32,999 nucleotides of DNA, from positions 1 through 32,999 of the forward strand of contig JAKBFW010000011.1 in NCBI GenBank assembly GCA_021833345.1, in the 5' to 3' direction. This DNA comes from Pseudomonadota bacterium. GTDB lineage: Bacteria; Actinomycetota; Actinomycetes; Actinomycetales; Cellulomonadaceae. Position 1 is the stretch's first letter. The number at the start of each line of letters is the position of its first letter. The notes under the pieces were generated by a model that was given only the letters and a program-made list of their open reading frames with translations, did not search any database and was not told where the DNA came from. The translations under genes and the position numbers were made by a program. Positions 10,489 through 16,905 of the stretch are shown here, in pieces.

Positions 10489-11354
10489 GCGCAGCCATGC
10501 CCCTCAGGCCGACCGCCGGAGCGACGACGCACAGACTGCCGTCGGTGCTCACGCTCGGGCTCGCGCGCACCCGGATCGAGGTCCGGCAGTTCTTCCGCGA
10601 GCGGGACGCCGTGGTGTGGATCTTCGCCTACCCGATCATCATGCTGGCGATCTTCGCGACGGTGTTCGGACAGGGCGACGCCAGGGTGGGAGCGACGGGC
10701 ACGTTCGCCGGGATCCCGTTCGGGCAGTACTTCCTGCCCGGGATGGTCGCGACGGGCGTGATGCTCTCGAGCTTCCAGAACCTGGCGATCACGATCGCGG
10801 TCGAGCGCGACGACAGCACCCTCAAACGGCTCCGCGGCACGCCGCTGCCCGCGTCCGCGTACTTCCTCGGGAAGATCGGCTCGGTCCTTCTCACGTCGCT
10901 GGTCCAGACGGCGCTGCTGCTGCTCGTCGCCGCGACGGTGTTCGGCATCGAGATGCCGTCGACCGCCCAGCGGTGGATCACGTTCGCGTGGGTCTTCGCG
11001 CTGGGCACCGCCGCCGGCGCCGTGTGCGGGGTCGCGTTCTCGTCGGTCCCCCGCACCGGGAGAAGCGCGTCCGCCGTCGTGACGCCCGTCGTGCTCGTGC
11101 TGCAGTTCATCTCCGGGGTGTTCTTCGGGTTCACGCAGCTCCCCGGCTGGATGCAGGACGTCTCGTCGGTCTTCCCGCTCAAGTGGATGGCCCAGGGCAT
11201 GCGCTCGGTGTTCCTGCCGGACCAGTTCCAGGCCCACGAGGTCTCGGGATCGTGGGAGCACGGTACGACCGCGCTCGTCATCGGCGCCTACCTGGTTCTC
11301 GGGCTCGTCCTGGGGGCCCGCACCTTCCGCTGGCGGCGGCGCGACGACGGTTGA
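10485..11354 (+). CDS. ABC-2 type exporter, permease protein
   Basis: This 289-aa membrane protein is the partner of the ATPase at 9535-10488, overlapping it by 4 bases. It has about six hydrophobic segments: WIFAYPIIMLAIFATVF, a segment around GMVATGVMLSS, SVLLTSLVQTALLLLVAATV, WVFALGTAAGAVCGVAF, VVLVLQFISGVFFGF, and a last one near the C-terminus. The ABC2-membrane motif before the last helix (LPLKWM-type, here FPLKWMAQGMRSVF) is present. The N-terminus is cytoplasmic and basic. The stop is followed at once by the remains of a sensor kinase. Confidence 0.92.
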   Translation: MSAAMPLRPTAGATTHRLPSVLTLGLARTRIEVRQFFRERDAVVWIFAYPIIMLAIFATVFGQGDARVGATGTFAGIPFGQYFLPGMVATGVMLSSFQNLAITIAVERDDSTLKRLRGTPLPASAYFLGKIGSVLLTSLVQTALLLLVAATVFGIEMPSTAQRWITFAWVFALGTAAGAVCGVAFSSVPRTGRSASAVVTPVVLVLQFISGVFFGFTQLPGWMQDVSSVFPLKWMAQGMRSVFLPDQFQAHEVSGSWEHGTTALVIGAYLVLGLVLGARTFRWRRRDDG

Positions 11355-11830
11355 GACCCGCAGGTCGCGCTGGCGCTGCTGGTCGAGGGCGACGTCCCGA
11401 CCGATCATCTGGGCCCCGTCGCGGGCCAGCTCACCGTGCCTCTCGTGTTCGCCATCATGCTCGGGCTGTGGATCGCGCTCGTCTCGGAACGGAGCGAGGA
11501 CCGCGCCGAGCTGCTCAAGTGGCTCGAGAGGCTCGGGGCGACCCAGCACGAGCTCGCCGCAGCGCACCGGGCCGAGGGGGTGACGGCCGAGCGGCCGCGC
11601 GTGGCGCACGAGATCCACGACACGCTCGCGCACGGCTTCACCTGCATCGCGATGCTCGCCCCGACCGTGGCCGCAGAGGTGGCGCCTGCCGACACCGCTG
11701 CGGCGACCCGGCGCCACGCACTGATCGAGCAGACCGCGCGGGAGAACCGGGCGGAGGCGCGCGGGTTGGTCGCCGCGGTCTCCCCGGTGGCGCTCGACGA
11801 CGGGGTCGGGACCGCATGGCGTCGCGGGAG
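11355..11830 (+). pseudogene. remnant of a NarL-type sensor histidine kinase
   Basis: Directly after the permease stop, in one open frame, lies part of a HisKA_3-class kinase. First come the end of a membrane helix (VPLVFAIMLGLWIALVSERS) and a linker (ATQHELAAAHRAEGV). Then comes the phospho-acceptor helix PRVAHEIHDTLAHGF with its histidine, and a matching second helix (ALIEQTARENRAEARGLVA). Similarity stops at about ALDDG (near 11805). There is no ATPase domain, and the first membrane segments before 11355 are missing too. No start with a ribosome site is visible, only a GTG at 11436. Exporter operons of this type often end in a kinase and a LuxR-type regulator; here both appear to have decayed or been deleted. 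Confidence 0.75.
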
Positions 11831-11893
11831 ATCGAGGTCCTCGAGCGCGGGACCCTGCCCGGCAGATGCGCTCGAGCTGACATCGCGACTCGT

Positions 11894-11926
11894 TCTCATG
11901 GCGCTCTCATCACAGACCTGGATACT
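11894..11926 (+). promoter_or_regulatory. direct-repeat regulator site and -10 box of the two-component operon
   Basis: Two TCTCAT hexamers start exactly 11 bp apart (11894-11899 and 11905-11910), the spacing at which OmpR/PhoB-family dimers bind. The second repeat overlaps the expected -35 region. A -10-like GATACT (11921-11926) follows, 6 nt before the ATG at 11933, so the transcript may be leaderless. No good -35 box is present, which fits an activator-dependent promoter. Control by the response regulator encoded in the same operon is inferred. Confidence 0.5.
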
Positions 11927-11932
11927 GGAGGC

Positions 11933-12493
11933 ATGGCCCGTGTCCGCACCTCCGTCTCGCTCGGCACCGTCGCCGTGCTGGTGCTCGGTGGGCTGAGCCT
12001 CGGTCTCGGCAGCGTGACGATGCCGGGCTCCACCACGCTCGGCGGCCCCGTCGTGCTGCCCGCGCGGCCGGAGCTCCAGCGTCCGCTGTTCGCGGCCCTG
12101 GAGGGGACCACCGATCCGCGCGCCGCCGGGATCGAGCCTGCAGCCGTCGAAGCCGTCGGCGTCCGGGCGCCGACGCCGATCCGCGCGGCGGCGCTCCGCA
12201 CCGCGACGAACGGCACCGCCTCCCACCGCGACCCCACCGGTACCACCGGCACCGCACAGACCAGGACGACCGGGGCCGACACCCGGGCGTCGACGGGGTC
12301 GACGGTGCCGGCTCCCGACGTCCGCGCCACCGGCACGGTGACGACGCCGACGTTGGCACCCGTCGAACCGGCGCATGCGCCGAGCGCGCCCTCGCGCAGC
12401 GACGAGATGCGTGGTGCCCTCGTCAGCCCGATCGAGCTGATGACGAGCGGCACGTCCACACCTGAGGGCACCCGTACCCACCCCCAGCCATGA
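11933..12493 (+). CDS. secreted Thr/Ala/Pro-rich protein of unknown function
   Basis: I do not recognise this 186-aa protein. It starts MARVRTSVSLGTVAVLVLGGLSLGLGS, a basic start plus one hydrophobic helix that fits a signal peptide or single membrane anchor. The rest is low-complexity and rich in Thr, Ala, Pro and Gly (for example the stretch around TGTTGTAQTRTTGADTRAS), has no cysteine and no enzyme motif, and may be an extended wall-spanning region. Its stop overlaps the histidine kinase start (ATGA), so it is co-translated with the two-component system and may be its sensory partner or target. An alternative is a poorly conserved spacer ORF, but the signal sequence, the coupling and the promoter argue for a real gene. 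Confidence 0.65.
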   Translation: MARVRTSVSLGTVAVLVLGGLSLGLGSVTMPGSTTLGGPVVLPARPELQRPLFAALEGTTDPRAAGIEPAAVEAVGVRAPTPIRAAALRTATNGTASHRDPTGTTGTAQTRTTGADTRASTGSTVPAPDVRATGTVTTPTLAPVEPAHAPSAPSRSDEMRGALVSPIELMTSGTSTPEGTRTHPQP

Positions 12494-14085
12494 GGACGAC
12501 GGTTCTGCGCCCGTTCGCACGGTGGCGCGCACGCCGTCAGCACCTCTCCGTCCGCACCCGGGTCCTTGCGGCGGTCCTGGCCCTCGCAGCACTTGCGATG
12601 GTGATCGCCGGCGCGACGTCCACCCTGCTGCAGTACCAGCGCACGGACGTGCGGATCGACGACTCGCTCACCCGCGCGGCCCAGGACCTGCGCGACTTCG
12701 CCGCGTCCGACCTCGACCCGGCCACCGGGAAGCCGTTCGCCTCGATCGACGACCTGCTCTACCTTGCGGTGCAGCGACGCGCGCCCGCCGCTGACGAAGG
12801 GGTGATCGCGCTCGTCAACGGCGTGGAGAAGTGGCTCGCGGCCCCGACCGTCAGCCTGCGACTCGAGGCCGACCCCGAGCTGATGCACAGGCTCCGGTCG
12901 CTCGACCCGACGGTCACACCCCGACTTCAGACGATCCGGACCGCGGTCACGGAGTACCGGTTCGTCGCGATCCCCGTGAACGTGCAGGGCGACACCGCCC
13001 AGGGGTTCTTCGTCGTCGCCGTGGACAGGTCAGCCGAGCTCAGGGCGCTCGCGGTCTCGTCCCGCAGCTACGCCGTCGTCGCCCTCGGTTCGTTGTTGAT
13101 CATCGCGGCCGTGAGCTGGTTCGTGGTGGGGGCGCTGCTCCGCCCGATCCGCCTCCTGCGCGACACGGCGCGGAGGATCACCGAGGCGGACCAGTCCGAG
13201 CGGATCCCGGTGACCGGTCGGGACGACCTCGCGGACCTCGCCCGCACGGTGAACGCGATGCTCGACCGGGTTCAGGGCGCGTTCGGCTCGCAACGGCGCC
13301 TGCTCGACGACGTCGGGCACGAGCTCCGGACCCCGTTGACGATCGTCCGGGGCCACCTGGAGCTGATGGACTCGACGAGCTCGGCCGAGGTGGAGTCGAC
13401 GCGCGCGCTCGCTCTCGACGAGCTCGACCGCATGCAGCGCCTCGTGGACGACCTCGTCACGCTCGCGACGGTCGACCGGCCCGACTTCGTCCGACCGACA
13501 CGGACCGACCTCGGGCGACTGACCGACGACGTCCTGGACAAGGCGCGTCCGCTCGGCGACCGGCGCTGGCAGGTCGAGGCCAGGGCGGACGCGACGGTGC
13601 TCGTCGACGGGCAGCGCCTCACGCAGGCGTGGCTGCAGCTGATCGCCAACGCGGTAGCGATCACGACCCCCGGCGCGCGGATCCGCATCGGGAGCGCCGT
13701 CCGCGGGGGTCGCGCGTTGGTGTGGGTGCACGACGACGGCCCGGGCATCCCGCCCGAGGACATGCCGCGACTTCTCCAGCGGTTCGAGCGCGGAGGCAGC
13801 TCTCGGCGAACCGATGGTGCCGGCCTCGGGCTGCCGATCGTCTCGGCGATCGCCGAGGCCCACCACGGCGAGGTGCGGCTCGACTCCTCGACCCCTCTGC
13901 CGGCGGTCGAGCCGACAGGTGCCGAGAGCGACCGTTGGGGGGCGCTGGCCGGCGCGAGACTCGTGATCGACATCCCGGTGCTCGGCGTCCCCCTGGCGGA
14001 CGACGCGCGCGGCGACGATGCTTCACCTGACGTCGCTCGTGGGATCAGCAGAGCGTCGACGACGGAAAGGTTGGTAGGCCGGTGA
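12490..14085 (+). CDS. sensor histidine kinase (OmpR-class partner)
   Basis: A 531-aa membrane kinase. It has two membrane helices (about residues 26-48 and 194-216) flanking an extracytoplasmic domain of about 145 residues, then a HAMP linker (LLRPIRLLRDTARRITE). The H-box DVGHELRTPLTIV has His277 as the phosphorylation site. The catalytic domain shows an N-box with Asn387 (LIANAVAIT), the G1 box DDGPGIPPED (Asp416), the F box RLLQRFERG and the G2 box GAGLGLPIV. A tail of about 60 residues after the ATPase domain is low-complexity. The start overlaps the secreted protein stop and its end overlaps the response regulator start (GTGA), so all three are one translational unit. Confidence 0.93.
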   Translation: MRTTVLRPFARWRARRQHLSVRTRVLAAVLALAALAMVIAGATSTLLQYQRTDVRIDDSLTRAAQDLRDFAASDLDPATGKPFASIDDLLYLAVQRRAPAADEGVIALVNGVEKWLAAPTVSLRLEADPELMHRLRSLDPTVTPRLQTIRTAVTEYRFVAIPVNVQGDTAQGFFVVAVDRSAELRALAVSSRSYAVVALGSLLIIAAVSWFVVGALLRPIRLLRDTARRITEADQSERIPVTGRDDLADLARTVNAMLDRVQGAFGSQRRLLDDVGHELRTPLTIVRGHLELMDSTSSAEVESTRALALDELDRMQRLVDDLVTLATVDRPDFVRPTRTDLGRLTDDVLDKARPLGDRRWQVEARADATVLVDGQRLTQAWLQLIANAVAITTPGARIRIGSAVRGGRALVWVHDDGPGIPPEDMPRLLQRFERGGSSRRTDGAGLGLPIVSAIAEAHHGEVRLDSSTPLPAVEPTGAESDRWGALAGARLVIDIPVLGVPLADDARGDDASPDVARGISRASTTERLVGR

Positions 14086-14771
14086 CGCAGATCCTCATCG
14101 CTGAGGACGAGGACCGGATCGCGGCCTTCGTCGCCAAGGGGCTCCAGGCCCACGGGATGACGACCTCGGTGGTGGCGAGCGGGCGCGAGGCGTTCGACCA
14201 GGTGATGTCCGGCGGCGTCGACCTGCTGCTCCTCGACCTCGGGCTGAGCGACGGCGACGGCGGTGAGGTCCTGCGCCAGATGCGGGCGGAGGGAAGCACG
14301 GTGCCCGTCATCATCCTCACGGCGCGCAGCTCCGTGACCGACACGGTGGCCGGCCTGGAGAACGGCGCGGACGACTACATGTCGAAGCCGTTCCGTTTCG
14401 AGGAGCTCTTGGCGCGGATCCGGCTGCGGCTCCGCGGCGCCGCGGCGCCGGCCGCAAGCGAGTCCACCCTGGCGCAAGGACGCCTCTCCCTCGACCTGCT
14501 CACGCGGCGGATCGCCGTCGACGGCGCCGAGGTCGAGCTGTCTGCGCGCGAGTTCGCACTGGCCGAGGCGTTCATGCGGCACCCGGATCACGTGTTGAGC
14601 CGCGAGCAGCTGCTCTCCCAGGTCTGGGGCTACGACTTCGATCCCGGGTCCAACGTGGTGGACGTCTACGTCCGCTACCTCCGGCGCAAGATCGGCTCGG
14701 AGTTCATCTCGACCGTCCGCGGCATGGGGTACCGGCTGGTCGGCACCCCTGCGGTCACCGAGCCGGACTGA
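14082..14771 (+). CDS. response regulator, OmpR/PhoB family
   Basis: A 229-aa DNA-binding regulator starting at GTG 14082. The receiver domain has the acidic pair (AEDEDR, residues 7-12), the phosphorylation site Asp52 (LLLLDLGL), the conserved Thr in ILTARSS and the Lys in YMSKPF. A winged-helix DNA-binding domain follows (ELSAREFALAEAFMRHPDHVLSREQLL, then NVVDVYVRYLRRKIG and TVRGMGYRLV). It is the cognate partner of the overlapping kinase. Likely binding sites are the 11-bp-period repeats at 11894-11910 and 15806-15831. A bidirectional terminator follows at 14837-14882. Confidence 0.95.
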   Translation: MTQILIAEDEDRIAAFVAKGLQAHGMTTSVVASGREAFDQVMSGGVDLLLLDLGLSDGDGGEVLRQMRAEGSTVPVIILTARSSVTDTVAGLENGADDYMSKPFRFEELLARIRLRLRGAAAPAASESTLAQGRLSLDLLTRRIAVDGAEVELSAREFALAEAFMRHPDHVLSREQLLSQVWGYDFDPGSNVVDVYVRYLRRKIGSEFISTVRGMGYRLVGTPAVTEPD

Positions 14772-15002: not shown

Positions 15003-15710
15003 TCAGTGACCCGAGGTGGCTGTGCGCTCGTGCGTCGACGTGCTGACCTGCGCCTGGTCACGAACCTGAGCCTGCACGGAGGACTGCATCTCCGAGCTGA
15101 CCCGGGCCTGCGTCTGCGTCATCGTCTGCGTCTGCGTCATCGTCTGGGTCTGCGTCATCGCGCGTGCCGTCACCCGGTTGTCTGCCGGCGTCAGGGTTGC
15201 CGGGACGGGCTTCGAGGCGAGGACGGACACGGCCGTGGGGGACGACTGACGAACCTGGTCACCGTCACTGACGGTGTCGCAGTCCCGGAGGCGGTCCCTG
15301 GTCTGGTCCAGGGTCGCGTCCTGGTCCTTGTCACGCAGCTGGTCCTTGTCGCGGAGCTGGTCCTTGTCGCGGAGCAGGTCCGGGAGCGTGGTCACGACAT
15401 ACGTCGTGTCGTGGATCTTGTCGCGGTCCTGCGTCCTGTCCATGTCGCGGAGCTGGTCCCCGGTGCAGGTGGGGCTCGGGACGGTGGTGGGCGTCGTGGT
15501 CGTGGCCGAGATCGGGACGTCGACCCGCAGACGGTCCTGGTCGGCCGTGCGCAGGCGATCCGCCGTAGCGGTCGGGGAGCTGGTCGACGACGCCGTCACC
15601 GCGGAGAACGAGAACGACACCGGTGCCGTGGCCGACGCGAACGCGGCGGTCGCACCCAGTCCGACGACGCCGACAGCGCCGGCGACGATCCAGGAGATCT
15701 TGGTGTGCAC
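15003..15710 (-). CDS. secreted repeat protein (LRDKDQ and MTQTQT repeats), function unknown
   Basis: I do not recognise the family. The GTG at 15710 has an AGGAG ribosome site 7 bases before it, giving 235 aa. A signal peptide is clear (VHTKISWIVAGAVGVVGLGATAAFA, probable cleavage after residue 25). The mature part is hydrophilic: a Ser/Thr-rich start, then Asp/Arg/Gln-rich sequence with three LRDKDQ-type repeats (about residues 113-130) and three MTQTQ(T/A) repeats (residues 185-202). Both come from 18-bp DNA units. Two cysteines flank the charged part. There are no catalytic motifs; a wall-associated or ion-binding structural role is possible but unproven. The upstream region has three 11-bp-period repeats like those before the two-component operon. 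Confidence 0.72.
   Translation of the reverse strand: MHTKISWIVAGAVGVVGLGATAAFASATAPVSFSFSAVTASSTSSPTATADRLRTADQDRLRVDVPISATTTTPTTVPSPTCTGDQLRDMDRTQDRDKIHDTTYVVTTLPDLLRDKDQLRDKDQLRDKDQDATLDQTRDRLRDCDTVSDGDQVRQSSPTAVSVLASKPVPATLTPADNRVTARAMTQTQTMTQTQTMTQTQARVSSEMQSSVQAQVRDQAQVSTSTHERTATSGH
15105..15158 (-). repeat. three 18-bp tandem repeats encoding MTQTQ(T/A)
   Basis: Units at 15158-15141, 15140-15123 and 15122-15105 differ by only a few bases. They keep the reading frame of the secreted protein. Confidence 0.85.
15321..15374 (-). repeat. three 18-bp tandem repeats encoding LRDKDQ
   Basis: Units at 15374-15357, 15356-15339 and 15338-15321; the first two are identical over 18 bp and the third differs at two positions. 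They are in frame in the secreted repeat protein. Confidence 0.88.
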
Positions 15711-15783
15711 GGTAGTGCTCCTCTCATCGGGCTGCGGGTGGCAGCCCTGGAACTGATGCGACACGGCTCTCGTGCTGTGTCAC

Positions 15784-15842
15784 CACCAGGGTGGACCGCC
15801 CTGGTGAGAGGGGCAGGAGAGGGCGGTGAGACTCCTCTCACC
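15784..15842. promoter_or_regulatory. divergent control region with three 11-bp-period repeats
   Basis: Read on the minus strand, three related blocks TCTCACC / TCTCCTG / TCTCACC follow each other at exact 11-bp steps (their GAGA complements on the plus strand are at 15828-15831, 15817-15820 and 15806-15809). They resemble the TCTCAT pair at 11894-11910. An 8-bp inverted repeat (CACCAGGG at 15784-15791, CCCTGGTG at 15799-15806) and a GGTGAG-N6-CTCACC inverted repeat (15825-15842) flank them. The region lies between the secreted repeat protein (minus) and the deaminase gene (plus). Confidence 0.55.
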
Positions 15843-15867
15843 CCCGTTCACCAGGCACAATGAACCG

Positions 15868-16905
15868 GTGCGCGACCTTGCTCGACTGCCCAAGGCTCAC
15901 CTGCATCTGCACTTCACCGGATCCATGCGCGTCTCGACACTCGTCGATCTCGCCACCGAACGGGGCGTGCGGCTCCCCTCCGCGCTGATCGACGGTGACC
16001 CGCTGCGGGTCCCCGGCACGGAGCGCGGCTGGTTCCGCTTCCAGCGCCTGTACGACGCCGCACGCAGCTGCGTGCGATCGGAAGCGGCGATGCGCCGGAT
16101 CATCGCCGAGGCGGCGGAGGACGATGCCGCCGAGGGATCCGGGCGCCTGGAGATCCAGGTCGATCCGACGTCCTACGCGCCCTTCGTCGGTGGCATCACG
16201 CCGGCCCTGGAGATCGTGCTCGACGCGGCGGTCGAGGCGGGCGAGGCGACCGGGATCGAGGTCGGCGTCATCGTGGCGTCGTCTCGGATGCGCCACCCGC
16301 TGGAGGCGCGGACCCTGGCGCGGCTCGCTGCCGCGCACGCCGGCGACGGCCCGGGTCAGGTCGTCGGCTTCGGTCTGAGCAATGACGAGCGGCGGGGCGA
16401 GACGGCCGACTTCGCTGCGGCGTTCGCGATCGCGCGGCGGGCCGGCCTCGCGTCGGTGCCGCACGGTGGCGAGCTGCTCGGACCGCAGCACGTGGCCGAC
16501 GTCGTCGCACGGCTCGCGCCCGACCGGATCGGCCACGGGGTCCGGTCCGCGGAGGATCCCCGCGTGCTCGGCGCCGTCGTCGAGGCCGGCATCGCGCTCG
16601 AGGTGTGCCCGGCGTCGAACGTGTCGCTCGGGGTCTACACGACCGCCGCCGACGTGCCCTTGCGCGCACTGGTGGACGCCGGAGCGGTCGTGGCGCTCGG
16701 CGCGGACGACCCACTGCTCTTCGGCTCGCGGTTGACCCGGCAGTACGAGGATGCGCGGACCGTCCACGGGTTCAGCGACCGAGAGCTCGCGGAGCTGGCG
16801 CGTGGCTCCATCCGGGCATCGACGGCGTCAGATTCGACGAAGAGCCGGATGCTCGCCGGGGTGGAGGCCTGGCTCACCGACCCGAGCCCCTCCGAGAGGA
16901 TCTGA
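15868..16905 (+). CDS. add: adenosine deaminase family protein
   Basis: A metal-dependent amidohydrolase of the adenosine/adenine/AMP deaminase group, 345 aa from GTG 15868, probably deaminating adenosine to inosine in purine salvage. The family motifs are the first metal pair HLHLHFTGS (His13, His15), PHGGEL (His199 and the catalytic Glu202), RIGHGVR (His223), EVCPASNVSLGVY and ALGADDPLLFGS (Asp280/Asp281). The usual Asp after the first histidine pair is Thr here, so the substrate could differ. A -10-like CACAAT ends 6 nt before the GTG and no ribosome site is evident, so the mRNA may be leaderless. The open frame upstream of the GTG runs through the regulatory repeats and is not used. Confidence 0.87.
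   Translation: MRDLARLPKAHLHLHFTGSMRVSTLVDLATERGVRLPSALIDGDPLRVPGTERGWFRFQRLYDAARSCVRSEAAMRRIIAEAAEDDAAEGSGRLEIQVDPTSYAPFVGGITPALEIVLDAAVEAGEATGIEVGVIVASSRMRHPLEARTLARLAAAHAGDGPGQVVGFGLSNDERRGETADFAAAFAIARRAGLASVPHGGELLGPQHVADVVARLAPDRIGHGVRSAEDPRVLGAVVEAGIALEVCPASNVSLGVYTTAADVPLRALVDAGAVVALGADDPLLFGSRLTRQYEDARTVHGFSDRELAELARGSIRASTASDSTKSRMLAGVEAWLTDPSPSERI

Follow-up and report, generated by a model that had tools for sequence, protein, structure and literature searches.

Two-component systems with an extra envelope protein are already known, CseA, AfsQ3 and HbpS being the examples in the available parts of PMC9739842 and PMC4991794. In Streptomyces, CseA and AfsQ3, of the CseA-CseB-CseC and AfsQ1-Q2-Q3 systems, are described as (potential) lipoproteins thought to modulate their kinase (PMC9739842, available part), while HbpS, of the HbpS-SenS-SenR system, is a secreted protein that works with a kinase and a regulator (PMC4991794, PMC9739842, same parts). 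The same part of PMC9739842 lists membrane proteins and lipoproteins as the targets of MacRS in Streptomyces coelicolor. In this report we focus on an operon of related design in a 32,999-nucleotide stretch of DNA (positions 1 to 32,999 of contig JAKBFW010000011.1, assembly GCA_021833345.1, placed by GTDB in the Cellulomonadaceae), which in its entirety we call the window. The operon encodes a low-complexity envelope protein, SP1, a histidine kinase and an OmpR/PhoB-type response regulator, and a convergent gene encodes a second low-complexity protein, SP2. We consider it likely that together they form a self-regulating two-component module with SP1 and SP2 as its envelope partners, in which the regulator would activate its own operon and the SP2 gene. 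The operon has the following elements, with lengths in amino acids (aa) and distances in base pairs (bp).

11894..11910, plus strand: operon operator, two TCTCAT half-sites (11894-11899 and 11905-11910) at an 11-bp step, conserved in relatives
11921..11926, plus strand: GATACT, a -10-like hexamer, 10 bp past the second half-site and 6 bp ahead of the SP1 ATG
11933..12493, plus strand: SP1 (= ORF1), 186 aa, Thr/Ala/Pro-rich, membrane-anchored or secreted, with the motif LGGPVVL after its hydrophobic segment
12490..14085, plus strand: histidine kinase, 531 aa, with a predicted extracytoplasmic PDC/Cache-like sensor, HAMP, HisKA and HATPase_c
14082..14771, plus strand: response regulator, OmpR/PhoB-type, 229 aa, with Response_reg and Trans_reg_C

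That the three genes form one unit, as an earlier sequence-only reading of this DNA had claimed, is borne out by the 4-base overlaps that join SP1 to the kinase (ATGA, 12490-12493) and the kinase to the regulator (GTGA, 14082-14085), and by the recurrence of the SP1-kinase-regulator order in relatives of several families. The kinase (HAMP, HisKA and HATPase_c) and the regulator (Response_reg and Trans_reg_C) match these Pfam domains above gathering scores, and by domain criteria they are an OmpR/PhoB-family two-component system. Scores against models of narrower families fell below the cut-offs: 175.1 bits for the regulator against the CseB model NF041733 (cut-off 350) and, for kinase and regulator respectively, 129.8 (cut-off 450) and 182.2 (300) against the MtrAB models NF040691 and NF040689, 180 (292.55) and 182.5 (279.2) against the heavy-metal CzcS/CusS models TIGR01386 and TIGR01387, and 128.5 (725) and 145.2 (340) against the WalKR (YycGF) models NF033092 and NF040534.

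The operator ahead of the operon, TCTCATGGCGCTCTCAT at 11894-11910, is the sole TCTCAT-N5-TCTCAT in the window and one of three in its assembly, and the pattern was present in 0 of 100 dinucleotide shuffles of the window. Eight of ten aligned SP1 promoters, the window's counted, share a fixed succession of half-site, 10 bp, GATACT-like hexamer, 6 bp and start codon, the two with a different spacing being those of L040 and L049. This fixed spacing supports the ATG at 11933 as the SP1 start codon and, because of the distance from the -10-like hexamer to that codon, the operon mRNA is probably leaderless, with its transcript beginning at the SP1 start codon itself. Direct repeats at 11-bp steps are a signature of the OmpR family, and in PhoB-type activation they lie immediately upstream of the -10 element; by analogy, the arrangement of the operon promoter is that of PhoB-type activation.

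Conservation of the operator goes together with that of the kinase. Among 59 related genomes in which kinase orthologs were sought, there are 18 copies of exact TCTCAT-N5-TCTCAT, spread over 13 genomes, and 2 of the reversed pattern. All 13 belong to the 24 that have a near full-length ortholog of the kinase, and the repeat is in none of the 35 others (Fisher p 6e-7). The repeat is located at the operon in 9 of the 13, upstream of SP1 in seven (G000, G001, G002, G013, G022, G024 and G033), immediately upstream of the kinase in G027 and ahead of a downstream SP2-like gene in G041; in the other four (G014, G021, G044 and G053) it is located away from the operon. In the 875,375 bases of the loci, 27 sites score at least 24 (25 when the scoring is identical to that of the controls), versus 0.15 on average and never more than 3 for 59 permuted hexamers. 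The duplicate loci L031, L087 and L111 (of L073, L034 and L054) were left out of some counts. Two further repeats in the window's genome (C102 and C142 of G000), each conserved in one congener, are directed away from the nearest gene starts. Of the TCTCAT repeats shared by this genome and one congener, one (L056 1501-1517, L063 1501-1517) lies between a TatD-like gene and a DUF348/G5-like wall gene, which we take to be Rpf-type, and is oriented away from the start of the latter. Another (L057 1428, L071 1517, minus strand) has a gcvH-like gene on one side and a small LuxR-type regulator on the other, both named by eye.

The association holds on a much wider scale. In 394 genomes of the actinomycete class, the composite pattern TGAGANNNNTCTCAYNNNNNKCTCM gave 119 sites in 70 genomes, with 0 for the reversed control, and a kinase ortholog (E 1e-45 or better) is found in 123, roughly one third of the sampled class. 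Operator and kinase occur together in 66 genomes, the operator only in 4 (G046, G270, G335 and G431), the kinase only in 57 and neither in 267 (Fisher p 2e-35), and 83 of the 119 sites are no more than 6 kilobases (kb) from a kinase. Forty loci, hand-picked and thus non-random, were chosen from the 70 operator genomes to cover families. Matches to kinase and regulator are present in 36 of them, the weakest in L170; those without are L158, L181, L182 and L157, the last of which stops at a contig end in a genome that carries the kinase on another contig. In most of these loci the operators face SP1 (then the kinase), an SP2-type gene or an APH-type phosphotransferase gene (the one tested is Pfam PF01636). 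The next called open reading frame (ORF) after the operator is the kinase itself in L164 and L165, and in L158, L159, L170, L181 and L182 operators face other genes or no callable ORF. As in the window, two inward-facing operators stand a few kb apart in L177, L178, L184, L185 and L188. The operator is thus well supported by comparison, and so is the OmpR/PhoB binding geometry that had been proposed from the 11-bp step: a -10-like hexamer lies at a constant distance, and the arrangement is conserved and linked to the kinase across the class. From the same comparison we infer that this regulator would be the protein that binds there.

SP1 of the window belongs to no Pfam or NCBIfam family, in line with the view of the sequence-only reading that the secreted protein has no recognised family, and its translation contains zero Cys, which sets it apart from lipoproteins. 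Of 97 kinase-bearing loci from all sets, 52 have an SP1-like ORF ahead of the kinase; by reading, 26 of the 36 class loci with a kinase have one just upstream, a count from which the candidates of L159 and L194 and the first of those at L189 were removed as other genes or frames. Of the 52 proteins, 38 have the motif P[VILAM]x[VILFM] no more than 26 residues past the hydrophobic core, versus 26 of 316 control windows placed farther down these proteins. The motif takes forms such as LGGPVVL in the window, LGEPVVV in Streptomyces, and FGEPVEV, RDPIVI and SPVTV elsewhere. In 37 of the 52 the tail is acidic (12 or more D/E among the final 40 residues). Judged by these features, SP1 proteins are a family as yet without a name, with a predicted hydrophobic anchor, a Pro-Val-x-Val-like motif and a low-complexity, often acidic tail, and SP1 is most likely a partner of the kinase. 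One ORF called SP1-like, in L051 (-761 to -117 relative to the kinase), has a hydrophobic N terminus and by eye resembles a PepSY-type protein.

The sensor part of the kinase, folded alone, gave a model with a mean predicted local distance difference test score (pLDDT) of 82.1, in which two long helices frame a helix-strand-strand-helix-three-strand domain. Foldseek returned kinase-type proteins alone among the 50 matches listed for the whole kinase model, and no match at E 0.001 or better for the sensor part alone. A second aligner matched the sensor model to the sensor domains of WalK, a dCache chemoreceptor, CusS, CitA and PhoQ with Z scores of 7 to 11. Many of these scores are tied, and one of the tied leaders is the extracellular domain of WalK (5is1, Z 10.4, 128 aligned, 3.7 A). 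The model supports a PDC/Cache-like sensor fold, from which a ligand cannot be inferred because the PDC/Cache matches score alike and Foldseek gave none.

Downstream of the operon, at 15003-15840, lie a second operator and the convergent SP2 gene, both absent from the sequence-only reading, and beyond them a divergent neighbour.

15003..15710, minus strand: SP2, convergent secreted repeat protein, 235 aa, start GTG at 15710, with DKDQLRDKDQ and MTQTQT repeats; SP2-type neighbours occur in relatives
15803..15840, minus strand: SP2 operator, TGAGA (15840-15836), TCTCAC (15831-15826), TCTCCT (15820-15815) and TCTCAC (15809-15804)
15868..16905, plus strand: adenosine-deaminase-family gene (Pfam A_deaminase), in-frame start, divergent from SP2

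On the minus strand, from 15840 to 15803, the SP2 operator reads TGAGA-N4-TCTCAC-N5-TCTCCT-N5-TCTCAC, that is, three half-sites at 11-bp steps and one inverted. SP2 promoters have this composite operator with its shared three-step repeat, followed at a similar distance by a weaker -10-like hexamer. The operator of the window sits between the divergent starts of SP2 and of the adenosine-deaminase-family gene, to which similar genes occur near the locus in relatives. Directed toward the latter, TCTCAC-N5-TTCACC is found on the plus strand at 15836-15852; the operator region may, from its sequence, serve both directions. In L035 there are two tandem SP2-like genes (2840 and 3534 relative to the kinase), each with its own three-step operator, which suggests that the promoter was duplicated along with the gene.

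SP2 of the window has no match in Pfam or NCBIfam. The tails of the SP2 family often consist of short-period repeats, such as SPVSPKSPVSPKSP, NTPNTPNTP, KNTAPTKNTAKT and ANSPASANTAAS, and lags of 3, 6, 9 or 12 are the strongest in many of them. In the family f36, the C terminus of SP2-type proteins (three shown in full) has GGVDTGxGGT followed by a hydrophobic stretch and then arginines. All six fetched f36 loci (L164-L169) contain a sortase gene (Pfam PF04203 for L166, the others by homology), which adjoins the SP2-type gene in four (L166-L169), no SP2 being called in L164 and L165. A surface location of SP2-type proteins is thereby supported in f36, and may by extension apply to SP2 of the window.

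On the other side of the operon, at 11327-11860, there is a remnant of a NarL-type two-component pair, a shortened HisKA_3 kinase ORF beside a sequence matching the end of the partner regulator of a congener (L031). In that congener the two ORFs are intact, at 422 and 242 aa, and by comparison some 1 kb seems to be lost from the window's genome at this point, together with about 0.3 kb farther upstream.

In the mechanism that we propose, the kinase would sense the exterior through its PDC/Cache-like domain, and SP1, as the first product of the operon, would be anchored beside the kinase and tune it. The juxtamembrane Pro-Val-x-Val-like strand of SP1 would probably dock on the sensor domain of the kinase, and the low-complexity, often acidic tail would extend into the cell wall. 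Once phosphorylated, the regulator would bind the 11-bp-spaced TCTCAY half-sites immediately upstream of the -10 element, in a PhoB-like manner, and activate two targets, its own leaderless operon and the convergent SP2 gene, which encodes a putative low-complexity surface protein. The signal might be envelope stress or cations. The suggestion of the sequence-only reading that the secreted protein is an accessory sensor ligand or an output finds support on both sides, since the anchor, motif and often acidic tails of SP1 fit an accessory partner and the convergent SP2 fits an output. More tentatively, and with some doubt, we put forward SP1 as a class-wide, membrane-anchored co-sensor, the membrane-side strand motif of which would plug into the PDC/Cache domain of the kinase, with a long, mostly polyanionic wall tail serving as the bait, be it for cations, for cationic peptides or for wall tension. 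In response, the kinase would have the cell coated with short-period repeat proteins, and a single composite operator, conserved throughout the class, would wire the whole loop.

Several observations weigh against the proposed module. Of the class operator sites, 36 of 119 are not within 6 kb of a kinase, and 57 of the 123 kinase-bearing genomes are without the strict operator pattern. The comparison of Cellulomonadaceae that the sequence-only reading had called for gave a divided answer: operator and gene order are conserved in the window's genus and in several other genera, but scans detected no operator (no site scoring at least 20 of 26 between -1500 and +5500), SP1 or SP2 with 18 of the 19 Cellulomonas kinase orthologs (52-60% identical), L090 (C. 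carbonis) being the only locus with all three. Of 12 control loci, the SP2 scan recovers the SP2-type genes of 9 and misses those of L000, L037 and L101; its few candidates in the 18 Cellulomonas loci resemble antisense frames or membrane-protein pieces. Since these 18 loci are without operator, SP1 and SP2, the partners appear dispensable for the persistence of the kinase-regulator pair, and the system would itself be modular, the pair surviving without its partners. SP1 is present in five Streptomyces loci, but no comparable operator accompanies it (one site scoring 22 at +2601 in L097 was not counted as such), and Arthrobacter loci have an SP2-like gene with an operator but no SP1 call upstream of the kinase. 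As for SP1, five or more of the 52 calls seem to be false or to be something else (L043, L047, L048, L051 and L194), the motif pattern was picked after the sequences had been seen, its matched letters are not the aligned segment in 6 of the 38 matches (L036, L039, L183, L185, L190 and L193), and SP1 of the window keeps anchor and motif but has only 4 acidic residues in its last 40. Sortase matches are absent from the other 34 class loci and from 25 closer loci. Finally, the regulator is tied to its sites by sequence comparison, and its recognition-helix stretch is by eye the same in loci with and without operator, which is why no test of operator/regulator covariation is possible.

The sites that lie away from a kinase, a number of which are on other contigs or on short ones, raise the question of whether the repeats are those of another regulator, with TGAGAG-N2-CTCTCA as a possible dimer site and the two-component genes as just one target. 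The SP2-type operator, an inverted pair plus direct repeats, is indeed unlike the plain PhoB layout, and its inverted part resembles the MacR site. However, the kinase is present in 66 of the 70 operator genomes, with 83 of the 119 sites near it, the SP1 promoters of the window's genus carry direct repeats alone, and 11-bp direct repeats are typical of the OmpR family, so we regard another regulator as unlikely. That the inverted repeat near 15830 is a terminator or a chance feature, and the repeat at 11894 chance, is highly improbable: the arms near 15830 are complementary, but they leave a loop of 2-4 bases with no T run, in a site between two divergent gene starts and not 3' of a stop. A chance origin of the repeats was rejected on the near-zero permuted and reversed controls and is refuted by the class scan.

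A closer competitor, possible although we lean against it, accepts the operator and takes both SP1 and SP2 as pure outputs, surface or wall proteins, with SP1 placed first in the operon for co-expression and having no sensing role. The two proteins do share a plan, a hydrophobic N terminus followed by a low-complexity tail, many kinase orthologs occur without SP1, and the SP2-type genes that adjoin a sortase gene in one family make a structural surface role plausible. Against this, SP1 ends at or close to the start of the kinase, overlapping it in the window, its membrane-side motif is kept while the tail diverges, as would be expected of a docking segment, and SP2 is usually a separate transcription unit. 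We therefore favour the module in which SP1 acts on the kinase and SP2 is an output.

Set beside the described systems, the module has both familiar and distinctive parts. CseABC and AfsQ resemble it in joining an extra envelope protein to a two-component operon, but the hydrophobic segment of SP1 is a plain one, accompanied by a Pro-Val-x-Val-like motif and an often acidic tail, and SP1 of the window, having no Cys, is not a lipoprotein. HbpS is a heme-related redox protein, whereas SP1 is of low complexity. The WalK-YycH system of Bacillus/Staphylococcus shares the predicted fold of the kinase sensor domain, and the WalK operon encodes membrane-anchored accessory proteins; YycH, however, is a folded protein, and SP1 a short motif with a disordered-looking tail. 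PhoB-dependent promoters likewise have 11-bp direct repeats right upstream of the -10 element, but here the half-site is TCTCAY, SP2-type operators have an extra inverted half-site and the operon transcript is probably leaderless. MacRS is also a regulator of envelope proteins, and the inverted MacR site, TGAGTAC-N2-GTACTCA, is similar to TGAGAG-N2-CTCTCA here, although the core bases differ and the direct repeats are the constant part in our case. As given in the available parts of the respective articles, the MprA motif of C. glutamicum, TKTTAAGAAM (PMC12113857), and the CutR motif of Streptomyces, TAWATAAA (PMC12802291), do not match the operator, MtrA sites are direct repeats of five to six bases (PMC5650626), and sco5282/5283 (PMC6629963) is a regulator-first pair that does not match the SP1-kinase-regulator order. 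In the open-licence literature, nothing resembling the SP1 family, the composite operator, the kinase locus or the class-wide circuit was found among the matches listed.

These findings provide a testable circuit of regulator, operator and targets for a kinase present in 123 of 394 sampled genomes. They also connect a definite control system with two families of fast-diverging low-complexity surface proteins, the tested members of which have no Pfam or NCBIfam match, and they point to a possible new mode of accessory-protein action on a sensor kinase.

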